A stretch of 64,000 nt of DNA from Bryobacterales bacterium (GCA_025463005.1 JAOAPR010000155.1:1-64000); one strand, 5' to 3'; positions 18,208-61,822 are shown, counted from the first letter of the stretch. Program-made: numbers and translations. Notes: generated by a model from the sequence alone, not told the origin.

Positions 18208-18639
18208 CTACTGCTTGTTCTTGCCTTCCGTCTCCGAGGAGCCGGCGAAAACCTGGCGGCCGTCAGCCAGCTTTACCGTCCGAGCGTTGGCCAGTTTGGA
18301 GCCGTCTTTTGCCAGTGATCCGGTAATGGTGACGGTGTCGCCCTGCTTCAGGGAATTACGCGTCCAACCCTGGCGCATGAGGCCGTTGGGGCTCCCGAGT
18401 TCGAGTTCCCAGTTGTTCATTTCGCCCTTTTCGTCTTTTACGTCGATATAAAAGCGGGCGTGGGGATTCATCCATTCGACCTTGGTAACTGTACCGGTAA
18501 GCGTCACCGGCTTGGCCGAATCGTACTCGGCGGCAAACGAGTGGTGCGCCAACATAGGCACAGTGCACAAGAGCAGTCCCAATCCCGCGACGATAACAGC
18601 AAGTAATTTAGCCTTCATTGGCAAACGACCTCCATCCAC
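18208..18639 (-). CDS. DUF6152 family secreted protein (copy A)
   Basis: MKAKLLAVIVAGLGLLLCTVPMLAHHSFAAEYDSAKPVTLTGTVTKVEWMNPHARFYIDV. Confidence 0.8.
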   Translation of the reverse strand: MDGGRLPMKAKLLAVIVAGLGLLLCTVPMLAHHSFAAEYDSAKPVTLTGTVTKVEWMNPHARFYIDVKDEKGEMNNWELELGSPNGLMRQGWTRNSLKQGDTVTITGSLAKDGSKLANARTVKLADGRQVFAGSSETEGKNKQ

Positions 18640-21229: not shown

Positions 21230-22237
21230 ATGCGATCCAAAATTGTGGTTTTCGCCGTAACGAGCGCGCTGCTGGCAGTCAACGCCGCGGGCCAAGGCAA
21301 GGCGACATCCGTTCGCTGCGATCGCGCGTGTCTGGACGCTTATGTCGACAAATATCTCGACGCTATGATCGCCCACGATCCGTCCAAGGCCCCGTTCGCG
21401 CGCGGCGTCAAGTTCACCGAGAACGGCCAGCGCCTGGAGCCTGGCGACGGCCTTTGGAACACCATGACCGGCAAGGGGACGTTCCGTCTTTTCGTCACCG
21501 ACGTCGAGGCGCAGCAGGTCGCGTTTCTGGGAAGCATCACCGAAGCCGGGACCGGCGCCGTGATTGGACTCCGTCTGCGGATCCGCAACAACCAGATCAC
21601 CGAAGCCGAGCACTTTATCCAGCGCAGTCCAAACTCGGCCGCGGGTTTCGAGCGGATTGGCTACAAGTGGACCGAGGCCGTCCCGCCCGCCGAGCGCATG
21701 TCGCGCGAGGAGCTTGTGAAAACCGCCAACATGTATTTTTCCGGCATGCAGAAGAACGACGGCAAGGGCGACTATCCGTTCGCCGACGACTGCAACCGGA
21801 TCGAAAACGGCACGCTGACCACCAACCAGCCGACGCCTCAGGGCAAGCAGAGACCTGATCCGAAAACTGCCACCGGCTATTCAGGCCAGTGGAGCTGCAT
21901 GGAGCAGTTCAAGAGCGGACTGCTGCACTTCGTCACGCGCATTCGCGATCGGCGTTATGTTGCCGTAGATCCTGAGCGCGGCCTGGTATTCAGCCTGATC
22001 TTTTTCGATCATTCCGCCGGAGACACGCGAAACTTCGAAACACCCGACGGCCGCAAGGTGAGCGCCGGCCCGCAGCAGCCCTGGACCTGGCAACTGGTGG
22101 AGCTTTTCGAGATCCGGCAAGGCAAGCTGCATCAGATTCAGGCCATCATGGAGCGCTCTCCTTACGGGATGAACTCCGGCTGGAGCTCCTGGGAAGACGG
22201 GATGAGCGACCGTGGCCGCGATGTCGCCAAACAATAA
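21230..22237 (+). CDS. Secreted four-Cys tandem NTF2/SnoaL-like protein, paralog 1
   Basis: Signal peptide; CDRACLDAYVDKYLDAMIAHDPSKAPF; second half ELVKTANMYFSGMQKNDGKGDYPFADDCNRIENG...CMEQFKSG...IRDRRYVAVDPERGLVFS. Confidence 0.75.
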   Translation: MRSKIVVFAVTSALLAVNAAGQGKATSVRCDRACLDAYVDKYLDAMIAHDPSKAPFARGVKFTENGQRLEPGDGLWNTMTGKGTFRLFVTDVEAQQVAFLGSITEAGTGAVIGLRLRIRNNQITEAEHFIQRSPNSAAGFERIGYKWTEAVPPAERMSREELVKTANMYFSGMQKNDGKGDYPFADDCNRIENGTLTTNQPTPQGKQRPDPKTATGYSGQWSCMEQFKSGLLHFVTRIRDRRYVAVDPERGLVFSLIFFDHSAGDTRNFETPDGRKVSAGPQQPWTWQLVELFEIRQGKLHQIQAIMERSPYGMNSGWSSWEDGMSDRGRDVAKQ

Positions 22238-22246
22238 ACAATAAAT

Positions 22247-22783
22247 ATGACGTTCGTGATTTTTGTTTTAACGCTGCTTAGTTTCCAGGCTCCGCTCGCT
22301 ATCGACAACCCACGAGTGCAAGTTCGGGAACTGGAAGGCGCTGTGGATTCGATCCCCTACGATTCGGTGTGGGTTTCCCGTACGGGGCGCGCAGTTTTCT
22401 TGAAGAATGGTAGTAAGCACGAGGCGGACGGCAAAGGTATTCTGATCGGTCTCAGGGACCTCAGGGTGCCGCCGCTTCCCAACACGTCGGGTTATCCGCT
22501 GGCGATGCCTCGGCCGGGAAGCAAGAAGTTACTCGAAAACGACCGCGTCATTGTTTGGGATTACGCTTGGACTCCCGACGTCCCAACTCCGATGCACTTC
22601 CACGACAAGGATGTGGTGGTGTTTTATCTCGAAGACGGCGCACTCCAATCCACCACGCCCAGTGGTGAGAAGACCGTGAACGAATACAAGCCTGGCATGA
22701 TCCGATTTAACCTGCGCGACCGGACGCACACGGAAACGCTGATCCGCGGCAAGCAACACGCCATCATTACAGAGCTGAAATAG
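22247..22783 (+). CDS. Secreted cupin-like protein
   Basis: Signal peptide; VIVWDYAWTPDVPTPMHFHDKDVVVFYLEDGALQST...GMIRFNLRDRTHTETLIRGKQHAIITELK. Confidence 0.6.
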   Translation: MTFVIFVLTLLSFQAPLAIDNPRVQVRELEGAVDSIPYDSVWVSRTGRAVFLKNGSKHEADGKGILIGLRDLRVPPLPNTSGYPLAMPRPGSKKLLENDRVIVWDYAWTPDVPTPMHFHDKDVVVFYLEDGALQSTTPSGEKTVNEYKPGMIRFNLRDRTHTETLIRGKQHAIITELK

Positions 22784-22784
22784 C

Positions 22785-23825
22785 ATGAGGAAATTCGCAG
22801 CGGCTCTCGCATTCTCTCTTCAGGTAGCTGGCTGGGGACAGAGTGCCTGCGATCGCGCGTGCCTTGAAAATTTCGTCGATCAATATATGGATGCGCTGAT
22901 CGCTCACGATCCCAAGAAACTGCCGATGACCGCGCGCGTGAAAAATACCGAAGATGCCGTGCGTCTGGAGCCCGGCGATGGGTTTTGGCGAACCGCAAAC
23001 GCGAAGGGTTCCTACCGGCTGTTTGTGACCGACACCGAAACCGGGCAGGTAGCTTTCATGGGAACTATGCGCGAAGATCCCAGCAACGCGGTAATCGTGG
23101 CCATTCGCCTGAAAGTCGAAAACCGCCAGGTTTCCGAGATCGAGAACCTGGTGGTGCGGAACGCACAGGCCGCCGCGAATCTGGAAAAGTTGGGCGCTCC
23201 CAATCCCGTGTTTCTGGAAGCGCTTCCGGTAGCGCAGAGGGCGTCGCGCGCGGAACTGATCCGGGTCGCCGACATGTATTTCTCCGGGCTGGAGAAAAAC
23301 GACGGCAAAGGAGAGTATCCGTTCGCGGACGGCTGCGAGCGCATTCAAAACGGCGTTCAGACTACGAACAATCCGAACGCAGCGACGCAGTCTTCGCCAC
23401 CGCCTGGGCGCGGCGGGCGCGGTGGAGATGGCAAACAACCCGCGGCTCCGCCCAAACCGCAGGGTCTGCAAATCAACATCGTCGCCATGGGTTGCATGGA
23501 GCAGTTCAAATCCGGCTATTTCCGCTTTGTGAACCGAATTCGCGATCGCCGTTTTGTGGTTGTCGACCGGGAGCGCGGGTTGGCACTCGCCATCACTGCT
23601 TTCGATCAGCCCGCCGGCAAATACGCCACGTTCAAGCTGGCAGATGGGCGCGAGATCACGGCGGGTCCGGAACGCCCGACTACGCTCGAAATAGCGGAGC
23701 TGTTTAAAATCGAAAACGATAAGATCCGGCGCGTGGAGGCCGTGCAGATGCAGATCCCGTACGGCATGCTTTCAGGCTGGAGTAGTTATGAGGACGGTAT
23801 GTCCAATCGAGCGAGGACACAGTAA
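22785..23825 (+). CDS. Secreted four-Cys tandem NTF2/SnoaL-like protein, paralog 2
   Basis: CDRACLENFVDQYMDALIAHDPKKLPM; ADMYFSGLEKNDGKGEYPFADGCERIQNG; GCMEQFKSGYFRFVNRIRDRRFVVVDRERG. Confidence 0.75.
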   Translation: MRKFAAALAFSLQVAGWGQSACDRACLENFVDQYMDALIAHDPKKLPMTARVKNTEDAVRLEPGDGFWRTANAKGSYRLFVTDTETGQVAFMGTMREDPSNAVIVAIRLKVENRQVSEIENLVVRNAQAAANLEKLGAPNPVFLEALPVAQRASRAELIRVADMYFSGLEKNDGKGEYPFADGCERIQNGVQTTNNPNAATQSSPPPGRGGRGGDGKQPAAPPKPQGLQINIVAMGCMEQFKSGYFRFVNRIRDRRFVVVDRERGLALAITAFDQPAGKYATFKLADGREITAGPERPTTLEIAELFKIENDKIRRVEAVQMQIPYGMLSGWSSYEDGMSNRARTQ

Positions 23826-29049: not shown

Positions 29050-29112
29050 TCCTCGCGCGAAGCGCCGTGGCGCATGTCCCCAGGTTACGATGAAAACGGA
29101 GGTAGACAGGAG

Positions 29113-29481
29113 ATGCTACGAACCATATTGAATTCAGTTCTGTGCGGATTTCTGGCTGCGATCCTGGCCGGATCGGCTTTGGCGCATCATGGATGGACGG
29201 GCTATGACGAACAGAAAACTCTCACCTTGACCGGCGTCATTCGCGAATCGTCCTGGGAAAACCCGCATGGCCTTATCCGGCTGCAAGGAGATGAGGGGAA
29301 GGGCAAGACGTGGCTGGTGTACCTGGCGCCCCCTTCGCGCATGGAATCGCGTGGCTTGCCGAAGGACGCGATCAAGGTCGGCGCTACCGTGACGGTGGTG
29401 GGCTATCCGAACAAAACCAATCCGGATGAGATGCGAGCTGAGCGCATCACTGTCGGCGGGAAGACTACCGAGCTTCGCTGA
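29113..29481 (+). CDS. DUF6152 family secreted protein (copy B)
   Basis: MLRTILNSVLCGFLAAILAGSALAHHGWTGYDEQKTLTLTGVIRESSWENPHGLIRL. Confidence 0.75.
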   Translation: MLRTILNSVLCGFLAAILAGSALAHHGWTGYDEQKTLTLTGVIRESSWENPHGLIRLQGDEGKGKTWLVYLAPPSRMESRGLPKDAIKVGATVTVVGYPNKTNPDEMRAERITVGGKTTELR

Positions 29482-58242: not shown

Positions 58243-58632
58243 ATGAGAAGAGGATATCTGGGGGCAGCATTGGCCTGCATCGGCGTGCTATTTGTCGCAA
58301 CGCCCACTTGGGCCCATCATTCATTCGCAGCCGAATACGATTCGAACCAGCTGATCACGCTCACCGGCAAAATCACCAAAGTGGAGTGGACTAACCCCCA
58401 CATCTACATCCATATCGATGTTCCGGAGGGCGGCAAAGTCATCACCTGGGCGCTCGAAGGCTATCCGCCAAACACGCTCAAACGGACCGGATTTCCGCGC
58501 GACGTGTTGAAGGAAGGCGACACCATCACGATCACGGCCTATAAATCTAAAGACGGTTCGAATACCGGCGCCGGGCGCGAAGTCACTTTCCCCGATGGCA
58601 GCAAGAAGTTCGCTGGGCCCGTCGGCCGCTAA
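58243..58632 (+). CDS. DUF6152 family secreted protein (copy C)
   Basis: MRRGYLGAALACIGVLFVATPTWAHHSFAAEYDSNQLITLTGKITKVEWTNPHIYIHIDV. Confidence 0.8.
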   Translation: MRRGYLGAALACIGVLFVATPTWAHHSFAAEYDSNQLITLTGKITKVEWTNPHIYIHIDVPEGGKVITWALEGYPPNTLKRTGFPRDVLKEGDTITITAYKSKDGSNTGAGREVTFPDGSKKFAGPVGR

Positions 58633-58656
58633 GCCCTGCTCCCATCTGAGGTTTCC

Positions 58657-59505
58657 ATGACAAAATTCGCTAGTTCTTTCATAGCGGTTGCGGCCGCCAG
58701 CCTGCTGATTTCGCTCCCGGGTTTCGGGCAAGGCCAGGGAAAGGGCAAAGGGAAGGGCGCAGCTCCCAAGGGACCGACTGCCGTGGTTCACAAACCCATT
58801 CCGCGCATGCCGGACGGCAAACCGGACCTGAGCGGCACATGGCAGGGCGGCGGCGTGAGCATCACCGGCGAAGACGGCGCTCCCCCGCTGAATCCGCTTC
58901 CTCCGATCGATAACCATCCGGTCAACCGCCAGCCTCTGACCTATAAGCCTGAGTTCGACGCGGTTCGCAACGCCAAGAATTACACCACGCTCGACGATCC
59001 CACGCTGTACTGTCTGCTGCCCGGTATCCCGCGCATCGTGGGCATGCCCATGCCGATGGAGTTCGTCCAGACTCCCAAGATGATCGCGATCCTGTATGAA
59101 TCCTTCCGCGCCTGGCGCCGCATCCCGATCGGCGACACCCTCAAGCATCCGGATGACATCACGCCCACCTGGATGGGCGACTCAGTTGGGAAATGGGAAG
59201 GCGACACGTTGGTGGTGGACACCATCGGCTTCAACGATAAAACTTGGATTGCCGGCACCGGCACCACCCACACCGAGCGAATGCACGTGGTGGAGCGCTA
59301 CACGTTAAACGACGACGGCAGCATGAGTTGGGAAGCCAAGGTGGACGATCCAGGTGCGCTGGCAGCGCCGTATGTCACGGGCGGCGTGTTGCGGGCGCCT
59401 ATCGGCGTGCGGGTCGAGGAGTACGAGTGCATCGAGAATAATCCCGATCCCAGCCATATGAAGAAGGCCGCAGAGCTCGAAACCAAGGGTAAGGGGAAAC
59501 AGTAA
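58657..59505 (+). CDS. Secreted hypothetical protein of an acidobacterial family
   Basis: Signal peptide; GQGQGKGKGKGAAPKGP; IPRMPDGKPDLSGTWQGGG; WMGDSVGKWEGDTLVVDTIGFNDKTWIAGTGTTHTERMHVVERYTLNDDGSMSWEAKVDDPGAL. Confidence 0.75.
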   Translation: MTKFASSFIAVAAASLLISLPGFGQGQGKGKGKGAAPKGPTAVVHKPIPRMPDGKPDLSGTWQGGGVSITGEDGAPPLNPLPPIDNHPVNRQPLTYKPEFDAVRNAKNYTTLDDPTLYCLLPGIPRIVGMPMPMEFVQTPKMIAILYESFRAWRRIPIGDTLKHPDDITPTWMGDSVGKWEGDTLVVDTIGFNDKTWIAGTGTTHTERMHVVERYTLNDDGSMSWEAKVDDPGALAAPYVTGGVLRAPIGVRVEEYECIENNPDPSHMKKAAELETKGKGKQ

Positions 59506-60524
59506 TGCGCGCCAGCGTTGGGCTGGCCGCTGTACTTGTTCTCGCGAGCAGCGTGGCCGGCCAAGGCCGGGGAGGCCGAGGCAACGCAGCACCCCCGGCC
59601 CCGGGCCCGTGCGATCGTCCCTGTCTCGAAGGGTTCGTCAACCAATATCTGGATTCTCTGGTGGCGCACAACGCGTTCGGGCTTCCGCTCGCTCAGAAGG
59701 TCAGGTTCAGCGAGAATGACCAGCTTCTCGATCTTGGCGACGGGCTGTGGAACGTCACCACCGATCTGGGTACCTACAAGCTGTATGTGAGCGATCCTCA
59801 GAGCGGCCAGGTTGGCTTTTTCGGAACGGTCCGGGAGAACGGCAGGCCGACGGCGCTTGCTGTGCGGCTGAAAGTGGACAACCGCAAGATCAGCGAGATC
59901 GAGACACTGGTGTATCGAGCGAGCGCCGGTCCCCCTCCGGGCGGCCGCGGAGGGCGTAGCGGCGATGCGAAGGCTCCGCCTCCTCCACCACCTCCGCCGA
60001 CAGGCGCCGCCGCGCTGGAGGAAATGAAGGTGGATCCGGTATTCCTCGAGATCGTGCCAGCCGATCAGCGCGTTTCGCGCGAGGAACTGGTAAAACGCGC
60101 TAACACCTATTTCGACGCGATCGAGCAGGGAAACGCTCCCGCGGCCGCTTTCGACCCGCAATGCAATCGTGTCGATAACGGAGTGAAAGTAGCGCCCAAC
60201 TGCGCTGAACAGATCAATTCCAAGGTACTGAGCTACATCCAAACGGTCTATCCGCGCCGTCCTGTCGTCGTGGACGAGGAACGGCAACTGGTCTTCGGAT
60301 TTTTCATGTTCCAGCAGCCGGGCGACCTGCTTTCCGTAGAATCGCCGGGACGCGGAAACTACAAATTCCCGGATTCCGCCACCCAGCCGGGGTTTACCGA
60401 GGTCGCACAATTGTTCAGGATCAAAGACGGCAAGATTCGCAAAATGGAAGCGCTGACATTAGCCGTGCCATACGGCACACCGAACCCATTCTTTAACGAC
60501 GATTGGCGCCGGCCAAAGAAATAG
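59505..60524 (+). CDS. Secreted four-Cys tandem NTF2/SnoaL-like protein, paralog 3
   Basis: CDRPCLEGFVNQYLDSLVAHNAFGLPL; ELVKRANTYFDAIEQGN...CNRVDNG...CAEQINSKVLSYIQTVYPRRPVVVDEERQLVFGFFMF; starts on the stop codon of the preceding gene. Confidence 0.75.
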   Translation: MRASVGLAAVLVLASSVAGQGRGGRGNAAPPAPGPCDRPCLEGFVNQYLDSLVAHNAFGLPLAQKVRFSENDQLLDLGDGLWNVTTDLGTYKLYVSDPQSGQVGFFGTVRENGRPTALAVRLKVDNRKISEIETLVYRASAGPPPGGRGGRSGDAKAPPPPPPPPTGAAALEEMKVDPVFLEIVPADQRVSREELVKRANTYFDAIEQGNAPAAAFDPQCNRVDNGVKVAPNCAEQINSKVLSYIQTVYPRRPVVVDEERQLVFGFFMFQQPGDLLSVESPGRGNYKFPDSATQPGFTEVAQLFRIKDGKIRKMEALTLAVPYGTPNPFFNDDWRRPKK

Positions 60525-60531
60525 GAATCAC

Positions 60532-61440
60532 ATGCTGCGAAAACTCTTTCTTACCGGTTTAGCTGCGGTCGCAGCATTCGCGCAGGGGCGCGCCGGTCCT
60601 CAGGGACCCTGCGATCGTGCGTGTCTGGAAGGATTCGTCAACCAGTATCTGGAAGCACTGGTGGCGCACGATCCCACGCGTCTGCAAATGACTCCCGATG
60701 TCCGTTTCAGCGAGAACGACGTGCCGTTGAAGCCGGGCGAAGCCCTGTGGAAAACCGCCAGCGGCCTGGGCACCTACAAGCTGTACTTCGCCGACACTCA
60801 AACCGGCCAAGTGGGATTTTTCGGGACTATTCGCGAAAATGGCCGACCGGCATCGCTCGTACTGAGGTTAAAGGTCGAGAACCGCCGCATCAGCGAGATC
60901 GAAACTCTGGTTCTGCGCGGTGCGGGCGCCGCAACAAACATGGAACGCGCCGGCACCCCCGATCCAGTCTTGACCGAGACCGTTCCGGTAGCGGAGCGCC
61001 TTCCACGGACCAAGCTGATAGCCACCACGAATCTGTATTTCGAAGCGATCGAGCAGGGTAACGGCGGAGTCGCTCCCTTTCACAAGGAATGCAACCGGTT
61101 CGAGAACGGGACCCTGACGTCGGGACCGCAAGGCTGCTCAGCACAGCTCGATACGCACATCTTCGACTACATCCAGAAGATCTACCCGCGGCGTTTCGTG
61201 GTGGTGGACGAAGAGCGGCAACTGGCATTCGGATTCTTCATGTTTAACCACCCCGGCGATATCACCTGGATCAAGAACGCCGACGGCACCCGGCGGGAAA
61301 TGGGCGCCGCTGCTACGCGGCCGTTTAGCGTCGACGTCGCCGAGCTGTTCCGCATCAAGGACGGCCAGATCCGCAAGGTCGAAGCGCTGATGGTCAGCCT
61401 GCCCTACGGGCAGAAGAGCCCCTACGTTCCCCAGCAGTAG
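60532..61440 (+). CDS. Secreted four-Cys tandem NTF2/SnoaL-like protein, paralog 4
   Basis: CDRACLEGFVNQYLEALVAHDPTRLQM; TNLYFEAIEQGNGGVAPFHKECNRFENG; YIQKIYPRRFVVVDEERQLAFGFFMF. Confidence 0.75.
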   Translation: MLRKLFLTGLAAVAAFAQGRAGPQGPCDRACLEGFVNQYLEALVAHDPTRLQMTPDVRFSENDVPLKPGEALWKTASGLGTYKLYFADTQTGQVGFFGTIRENGRPASLVLRLKVENRRISEIETLVLRGAGAATNMERAGTPDPVLTETVPVAERLPRTKLIATTNLYFEAIEQGNGGVAPFHKECNRFENGTLTSGPQGCSAQLDTHIFDYIQKIYPRRFVVVDEERQLAFGFFMFNHPGDITWIKNADGTRREMGAAATRPFSVDVAELFRIKDGQIRKVEALMVSLPYGQKSPYVPQQ

Positions 61441-61555
61441 ATTCTTTCAGCACAACGTTTTAGGCCAGGATGAGACTCGGGACGAGAACGGCAAAATCCG
61501 GGCCTTACCGCATGCGGTCAGGCTGGGAATAACCCCAGGGGGCCGGAAAGTACGA

Positions 61556-61561
61556 TAGAAT
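61556..61561 (+). promoter_or_regulatory. Candidate -10 (TAGAAT) 6 nt upstream of GTG, leaderless arrangement
   Basis: TAGAATagactcGTG. Confidence 0.4.
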
Positions 61562-61567
61562 AGACTC

Positions 61568-61822
61568 GTGGCTCGTGGTTGGGAAAGTAAGTCGGTGCAA
61601 GAGCAGATCGCAGCGGCTCAAGCCCGCCATGGCCAAAGCATAGCCCGCCTGACACCTGAACAGATGGAGGTCGCGCGCAAGTGCGATGCCCTGCTGCTCC
61701 ACCGGACTCGCGTACTGCACGATCTGGAAAACTGCACCGATGAGCGCTACCGCAAAACTCTCGCGGAGGGACTCGCATACCTGGAATCCGCGCTAACTGA
61801 CCTCGGCTGGACCGCTTCCTAG
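61568..61822 (+). CDS. Small hypothetical protein
   Basis: GTG start; 84 aa, largely helical: VARGWESKSVQEQIAAAQARHGQSIARLTPEQMEVARKCDALLLHRTRVLHDLENCTDERYRKTLAEGLAYLESALTDLGW. Confidence 0.6.
   Translation: MARGWESKSVQEQIAAAQARHGQSIARLTPEQMEVARKCDALLLHRTRVLHDLENCTDERYRKTLAEGLAYLESALTDLGWTAS

Follow-up and report, generated by a model that had tools for sequence, protein, structure and literature searches.

Positions 58243-61440 of a 64,000-nucleotide stretch of Bryobacterales DNA (GCA_025463005.1 JAOAPR010000155.1:1-64000, the whole of which is referred to here as the window) appear, as read from sequence, to be a small, operon-like cassette encoding four exported proteins: a DUF6152 protein, a PDLSGTW protein (PDL), and two paralogs, P3 and P4. 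DUF6152 and PDL are shown to form a massively expanded paired module, i.e., with about 40 occurrences in the genome, sometimes fused. P3 and P4 are accessory to that module, which also occurs without them. Structure prediction in turn shows members of the P3/P4 family to be modelled as two tandem NTF2-like domains, each a helix set against a curved antiparallel sheet. Tentatively, and with a confidence that falls somewhat short of even, we read the cassette as an extracytoplasmic module which would capture or transform aromatic or terpenoid-like molecules, an activity that we infer. The cassette is a candidate rather than a proven 'system'.

Layout of the cassette

The window's own assembly (G000) is from an acidobacterium (Acidobacteriota), with 6.36 Mb in 342 contigs. 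The cassette and its immediate surroundings are as follows:

58243-58632, plus strand: DUF6152 gene, matching Pfam PF19649 (E 6.8e-30; 103.5 bits against a cut-off of 27); predicted cleavage would give a mature N-terminus of HHSF
58315-58320: His-His codons of the DUF6152 gene, placed by alignment
58657-59505, plus strand: PDL (PDLSGTW/GTWQGGG exported protein), an open reading frame with a signal-like N-terminus and a 24-bp gap upstream
59505-60524, plus strand: P3, exported tandem NTF2-like protein, overlapping the PDL stop by 1 base (TAATG)
60532-61440, plus strand: P4, exported tandem NTF2-like protein (by AlphaFold and Foldseek), 7 bp after P3
60610-60918, plus strand: P4 N-domain, with CDRxC, Tyr39, Glu61 and Asp88 (precursor numbering)
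60991-61413, plus strand: P4 C-domain, with Tyr169, Glu191, Asp226 and Cys187/Cys202 (precursor numbering)
61568-61822, plus strand: small 84-aa open reading frame downstream of the cassette

An earlier, sequence-only reading had described these four reading frames, their strand, and their spacings of 24, -1 and 7 bp, all of which proved exact upon re-checking. So too did its CDRxCLE motif and two late cysteines (CNRxxNG, then PNC or QGC), with four cysteines kept in 90 of 101 family members. Each of the four proteins has, as judged from its sequence, a signal-peptide-like N-terminal stretch. A promoter and terminator scan was uninformative, as matches were no more numerous than in shuffled sequence; within the cassette that scan found no terminator-like sites on the plus strand. 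The 84-aa frame, which has no Pfam match, follows either the cassette or a DUF6152-PDL pair in G000 and in three relatives (G014, G019, G020), and a relative of it occupies the corresponding downstream position in a fourth (G015).

DUF6152 and PDL as a paired module

The genome carries 57 DUF6152 genes along with 145 PDL matches, some of them fragments (e.g., loci L149-L168). A PDL lies within 400 bp of 40 of those 57 DUF6152 genes, 38 of them on the same strand, as compared with about 3.5% expected by chance. Two DUF6152-PDL fusions occur as single reading frames in this genome (L152:5273-6424 and L153:6176-7345), and another is found in a gammaproteobacterium (L083:7784-8884), fusions which support a functional link between the two. 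Other genomes of the genus hold from 1 to 73 DUF6152 genes and from 3 to at least 61 PDL. Within the genus, genomes richer in DUF6152 genes also have more P3/P4-family paralogs (Spearman 0.85; Fisher p 6e-4, relatedness being ignored). DUF6152 is known as a family only, with no paper on it in the literature searched; here it is coupled or fused to PDL, in about 57 copies.

Of 51 distinct DUF6152 proteins, 49 have His-His immediately behind the predicted signal cleavage site, and an NPH motif is kept as well; the two exceptions to His-His are a fusion and a protein truncated by a contig end. Both features are kept by two further DUF6152 genes of the window, at 18208-18639 and 29074-29481. His-His plus NPH are reminiscent, at the sequence level, of a histidine-brace metal site. 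From this comes a more specific proposal, which we regard as a long shot: DUF6152 could be a copper- or other metal-binding redox protein, its site histidine-brace-like and built from the mature N-terminal His-His and the NPH histidine. It would then work with PDL as a ligand-binding barrel and, in this cassette, with tandem, ketosteroid isomerase (KSI)-like P3/P4 enzymes, in a modular extracytoplasmic system to oxidise or rearrange aromatic or terpenoid compounds, diversified about 50-fold per genome with one module per substrate.

The AlphaFold model of PDL is a beta-barrel of low confidence (pLDDT 71), with a weak likeness to fatty-acid- and retinol-binding barrels, i.e., FABP/lipocalin-type calycins (best Foldseek E 2.4e-3, TM about 0.5 by target). 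As a large set of exported orphan paralogs, possibly with one per substrate, DUF6152-PDL may be likened to the Bug/TctC periplasmic binders of Bordetella, of which B. pertussis has 76 (PMC11452294). Unlike Bug/TctC, however, its sequences are unrelated to theirs, and PDL is modelled as a beta-barrel rather than with a periplasmic-binding-protein fold. Elsewhere, a PDLSGTW protein at L144:4-771 carries a carboxypeptidase-regulatory-like domain at its N-terminus.

P3 and P4 as tandem NTF2-like proteins

The AlphaFold model of P4, built with 101 aligned family members, has a pLDDT of 96 and a pTM of 0.93. Its top Foldseek match in the PDB is Lsd19 (4rzm; E 1.5e-8), and below this rank numerous NTF2-like, SnoaL, KSI and isomerase structures; matches at E<=0.001 number 126, the best 50 of these 126 being mostly NTF2-like, and the CaMKII hub is included among the matches. 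The fold is thereby like that of the SnoaL/ketosteroid-isomerase-like NTF2 superfamily, and the predicted presence of two such domains in tandem is as seen in Lsd19 and the MonB-type polyether epoxide hydrolases. The N and C halves of P4 are recognizable as an internal repeat (hhalign probability 97.7, E 2e-12). Superimposed over its whole length, P4 departs from Lsd19 by an rmsd of 16 A, and therefore it is the single domains which match and not their mutual arrangement, i.e., domain placement differs between the two proteins.

Sequence comparison gave less. P3, P4 and PDL have no Pfam or NCBIfam family above cut-off. SnoaL_2 (PF12680) scores 18.2 bits against a P4-family sequence, under its gathering score of 27 (E 0.004), over the C-terminal strand pair, with 6 of 101 members matching (best E 0.0047), all short of the curated Pfam cut-off. 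P3 and P4 further differ from SnoaL_2 in being tandem, in being exported, and in having the CDRxC motif. A search of PDB sequences for a known family returned 3 marginal matches, 2 of which are designed NTF2-like proteins (E 0.14-0.86). Kinship of the paralog family to fungal DUF8021 was considered, a link for which the literature searched offered no supporting paper. Of the 'undescribed secreted system' in the sequence-only reading, the conserved exported cassette and the novelty of the protein family, without Pfam or NCBIfam model, are borne out, but the fold itself, as tandem NTF2-like, is not structurally mysterious.

Each half of P4 has a tyrosine and two acids. Among the 101 aligned members, the Tyr39 position is Tyr in 95 and Phe in 5, Glu61 is Glu in 100, and Asp88 is Asp in 98; in the C-domain, Tyr169 is kept in 101, Glu191 in 87, and Asp226 in 101. 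The N half has the spacing Tyr-22-Glu-27-Asp, and the catalytic acids of the Lsd19 N-domain, Asp38 and Glu65 (PMC4648038), are also 27 apart. The Lsd19 mechanism employs Asp as base and Tyr as acid (PMC8827043), and the Lsd19-related SalBIII has an active-site Tyr14. This likeness of trios is a resemblance by analogy, not proof, and the conserved trio can be structural rather than catalytic. P4 is unlike Lsd19 as well in having no detectable sequence similarity to it, in being exported, and in possessing cysteine pairs. A polyether polyketide cluster, as is associated with Lsd19 and MonB, is absent from the recurrent neighbours of the family. The cysteines would fit with an oxidising compartment, as four are kept in most members and, in the single clean case of loss, both those of CxxxC are gone together.

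From a different perspective, P3 and P4 might be non-catalytic, exported binding or scaffold proteins which merely share a transcript with DUF6152-PDL, making the cassette a binding module that catalyses no reaction. This is the main rival to our reading, and it is a substantial though doubtful one. NTF2-like folds often are binding or scaffold domains, the CaMKII hub match being an example, the PDL model has its weak likeness to lipid-binding barrels, and the large paralogy recalls the substrate-specific Bug binders. Strict retention of Tyr, Glu and Asp in both halves across several phyla nevertheless goes beyond what a pure binder would need, and homologs are placed among enzyme genes.

Recurrence and loss of the cassette

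The order DUF6152-PDL-P3-P4, in one orientation, is found in five genomes of the genus (G000, G014, G004, G007, G015). Among these the flanking contexts are of four kinds, with flanks common only to G000 and G014. Outside of the genus, another acidobacterium has DUF6152-PDL-paralog (L053), one gammaproteobacterium DUF6152-paralog (L063), and a second the above-noted DUF6152-PDL fusion, which overlaps the paralog that comes after it (L083). The sequence-only reading had allowed that the clustering might be accidental, as absence of a conserved neighbourhood in other Acidobacteriota would indicate; since the order recurs in other genomes, the neighbourhood is indeed a conserved one. Chance clustering due to a high density of PDL genes is ruled out by retention of that order in several contexts. 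Cassette orthologs have dN/dS of 0.07-0.37 (taken only where dS is unsaturated), and the cassette genes are under purifying selection.

The version found in G014 has three paralogs rather than two, the third being distantly related and directly following P4 (L047:9923-10891). Separately, P3 (59505-60524) and its positional counterpart in G014 (L047:7922-9004) differ with a dS of 1.73, versus 0.6-0.8 for neighbouring genes, which suggests that P3 was replaced or has recombined relative to that counterpart.

The accessory status of P3 and P4 follows from close relatives which keep DUF6152-PDL at the same locus without them. In G019 (PDL 89% identical) and G020 (79%), that is, DUF6152-PDL is followed directly by the 84-aa gene (L170:1-1400 and L169:4265-5925, corresponding to 58243-61822 of the window), and G008 likewise is without P3/P4. 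At the junction of such a locus are a few bases resembling the start of P3, remnants which are consistent with, though no proof of, P3/P4 deletion. As the PDL and P4 trees have the same topology, repeated loss would be the simpler reading.

Might P3 and P4 instead be hitch-hikers, their adjacency to DUF6152-PDL incidental and favoured by there being some 145 PDL genes per genome? We consider this unlikely. Elsewhere the family occurs mostly as lone genes unlinked to DUF6152 or PDL, the DUF6152-PDL module is directly upstream and on the same strand in just 8 of the 93 family runs having an upstream gene (the corresponding count for the downstream side being 0 of 95), and loss from the same locus in relatives also would be expected of hitch-hikers. 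Against this are the single order seen in five genomes and four contexts, the 1-base overlap or very short gaps, the agreement of the P4 and PDL trees, and the position of the module, which is always upstream and never downstream.

The paralog family and its history

The family has 8 copies in its own genome, not just the window's 4. It is carried by 16 of 101 genomes (this one plus 100 relatives), mainly of the same genus and with up to 12 copies, and by 12 of 297 genomes in a phylum sample, chiefly of one other genus (g104). In a search of contigs it turned up under the record titles Acidobacteria, Gamma-, Alpha- and Deltaproteobacteria, and it is present on five sphingomonad plasmids. A hydrophobic N-terminus precedes the first cysteine motif in 120 of 121 testable members. 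A viral origin was considered and set aside, there being no relative among the viral contigs searched.

The other two family members in the window, pair 1, lie 35.7 kb upstream of pair 2 (P3 and P4), in the following arrangement:

21230-22237, plus strand: P1, paralog family member
22247-22783, plus strand: exported protein, 'cupin-like' as read from sequence, between P1 and P2; no Pfam match
22785-23825, plus strand: P2, paralog family member

In relatives, pair 1 usually is paralog-cupin-like-paralog, that is, the cupin-like gene is kept. The picture of two differently arranged pairs about 36 kb apart, both within cassettes of exported proteins, was thus borne out, each arrangement recurring in relatives. 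A strong second-half divergence of pair 2 from pair 1, also claimed, is correct in direction but only moderate in degree (identity of 43-56% for the N-domain versus 34-43% for the C-domain).

As to whether the pairs arose via local or instead block duplication, a question likewise raised from sequence, an IQ-TREE phylogeny was combined with AU tests of alternative topologies. P1, P2, P3 and P4 each form one clade with genes at the matching position in relatives. The P3 and P4 clades are each other's sisters (support 98/97), by which the tree shows these two to derive from one local duplication. Pair 2 as a block copy of pair 1 is rejected (P1+P3, AU p 1.4e-56; P2+P4, AU p 2.3e-84), as is a simple local duplication giving rise to pair 1 (P1+P2 sisterhood, AU p 0.0009). 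The phylogeny shows the members of pair 1 to be two older lineages brought together, with P1 found near gammaproteobacterial sequences. Local duplication, in short, applies to pair 2 but not to pair 1, and block duplication to neither.

Gene neighbourhoods and possible function

In the cultured Novosphingobium capsulatum HAMBI_0103 a homolog (U0041_RS20855, WP_062786784.1), annotated as 'hypothetical protein', is located between a TonB-dependent receptor gene and TPP-enzyme/MFS genes, in a cluster which adjoins pcaF, a catechol-type dioxygenase gene and catC. A Croceicoccus cluster runs TonB receptor-carboxylesterase-homolog-RPE65-SnoaL_4, and around other copies are carboxylesterase, tannase, RPE65, metallo-beta-lactamase-fold and MFS genes. 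Neighbour enrichment is a weak clue to function, however, because a control set taken from distant positions has just as many SnoaL_4 and MFS (5 and 4 in each set).

A role as secreted interbacterial effectors, polymorphic-toxin-like, or as a defence cassette with immunity partners, would be highly improbable. Such effectors might be expected to be exported paralogs in tandem, diversified and with disulfide cysteines, and NTF2-like folds occur among the immunity proteins of known polymorphic toxin systems. Pfam and NCBIfam nevertheless find no toxin, secretion, delivery, immunity or defence domain in the cassette, selection is purifying rather than toward rapid diversification, and homologs occur in aromatic-catabolism clusters and in none of the viral contigs.

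With our preferred reading, that of an extracytoplasmic capture or transformation module, the cassette proteins would reside outside of the cytoplasm, i.e., in the periplasm or at the cell surface. They would act on small hydrophobic molecules, the likeliest targets being aromatic or terpenoid-type compounds from plants, or esters of these. Each half of P3 and P4 would supply an NTF2-like conical pocket, in which the Tyr/Glu/Asp trio may effect acid-base chemistry like that of ketosteroid isomerase or Lsd19 (isomerisation, hydration/dehydration or epoxide opening); if not catalytic, then these pockets would serve in ligand binding. DUF6152-PDL would serve as a stable core for capture or delivery that has diversified through massive paralogy, with P3/P4 a dispensable add-on to one such core.

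Biological meaning

About 200 genes per genome, in one soil acidobacterial genus, belong to the two linked exported families DUF6152 and PDL, both of uncharacterised function. To these the conserved cassette adds a further exported family, whose fold is enzyme-like. With the linkage named and homologs located in cultured Novosphingobium, much 'hypothetical' secretome can be put to the test, and this could show how these soil bacteria deal with plant-derived compounds.
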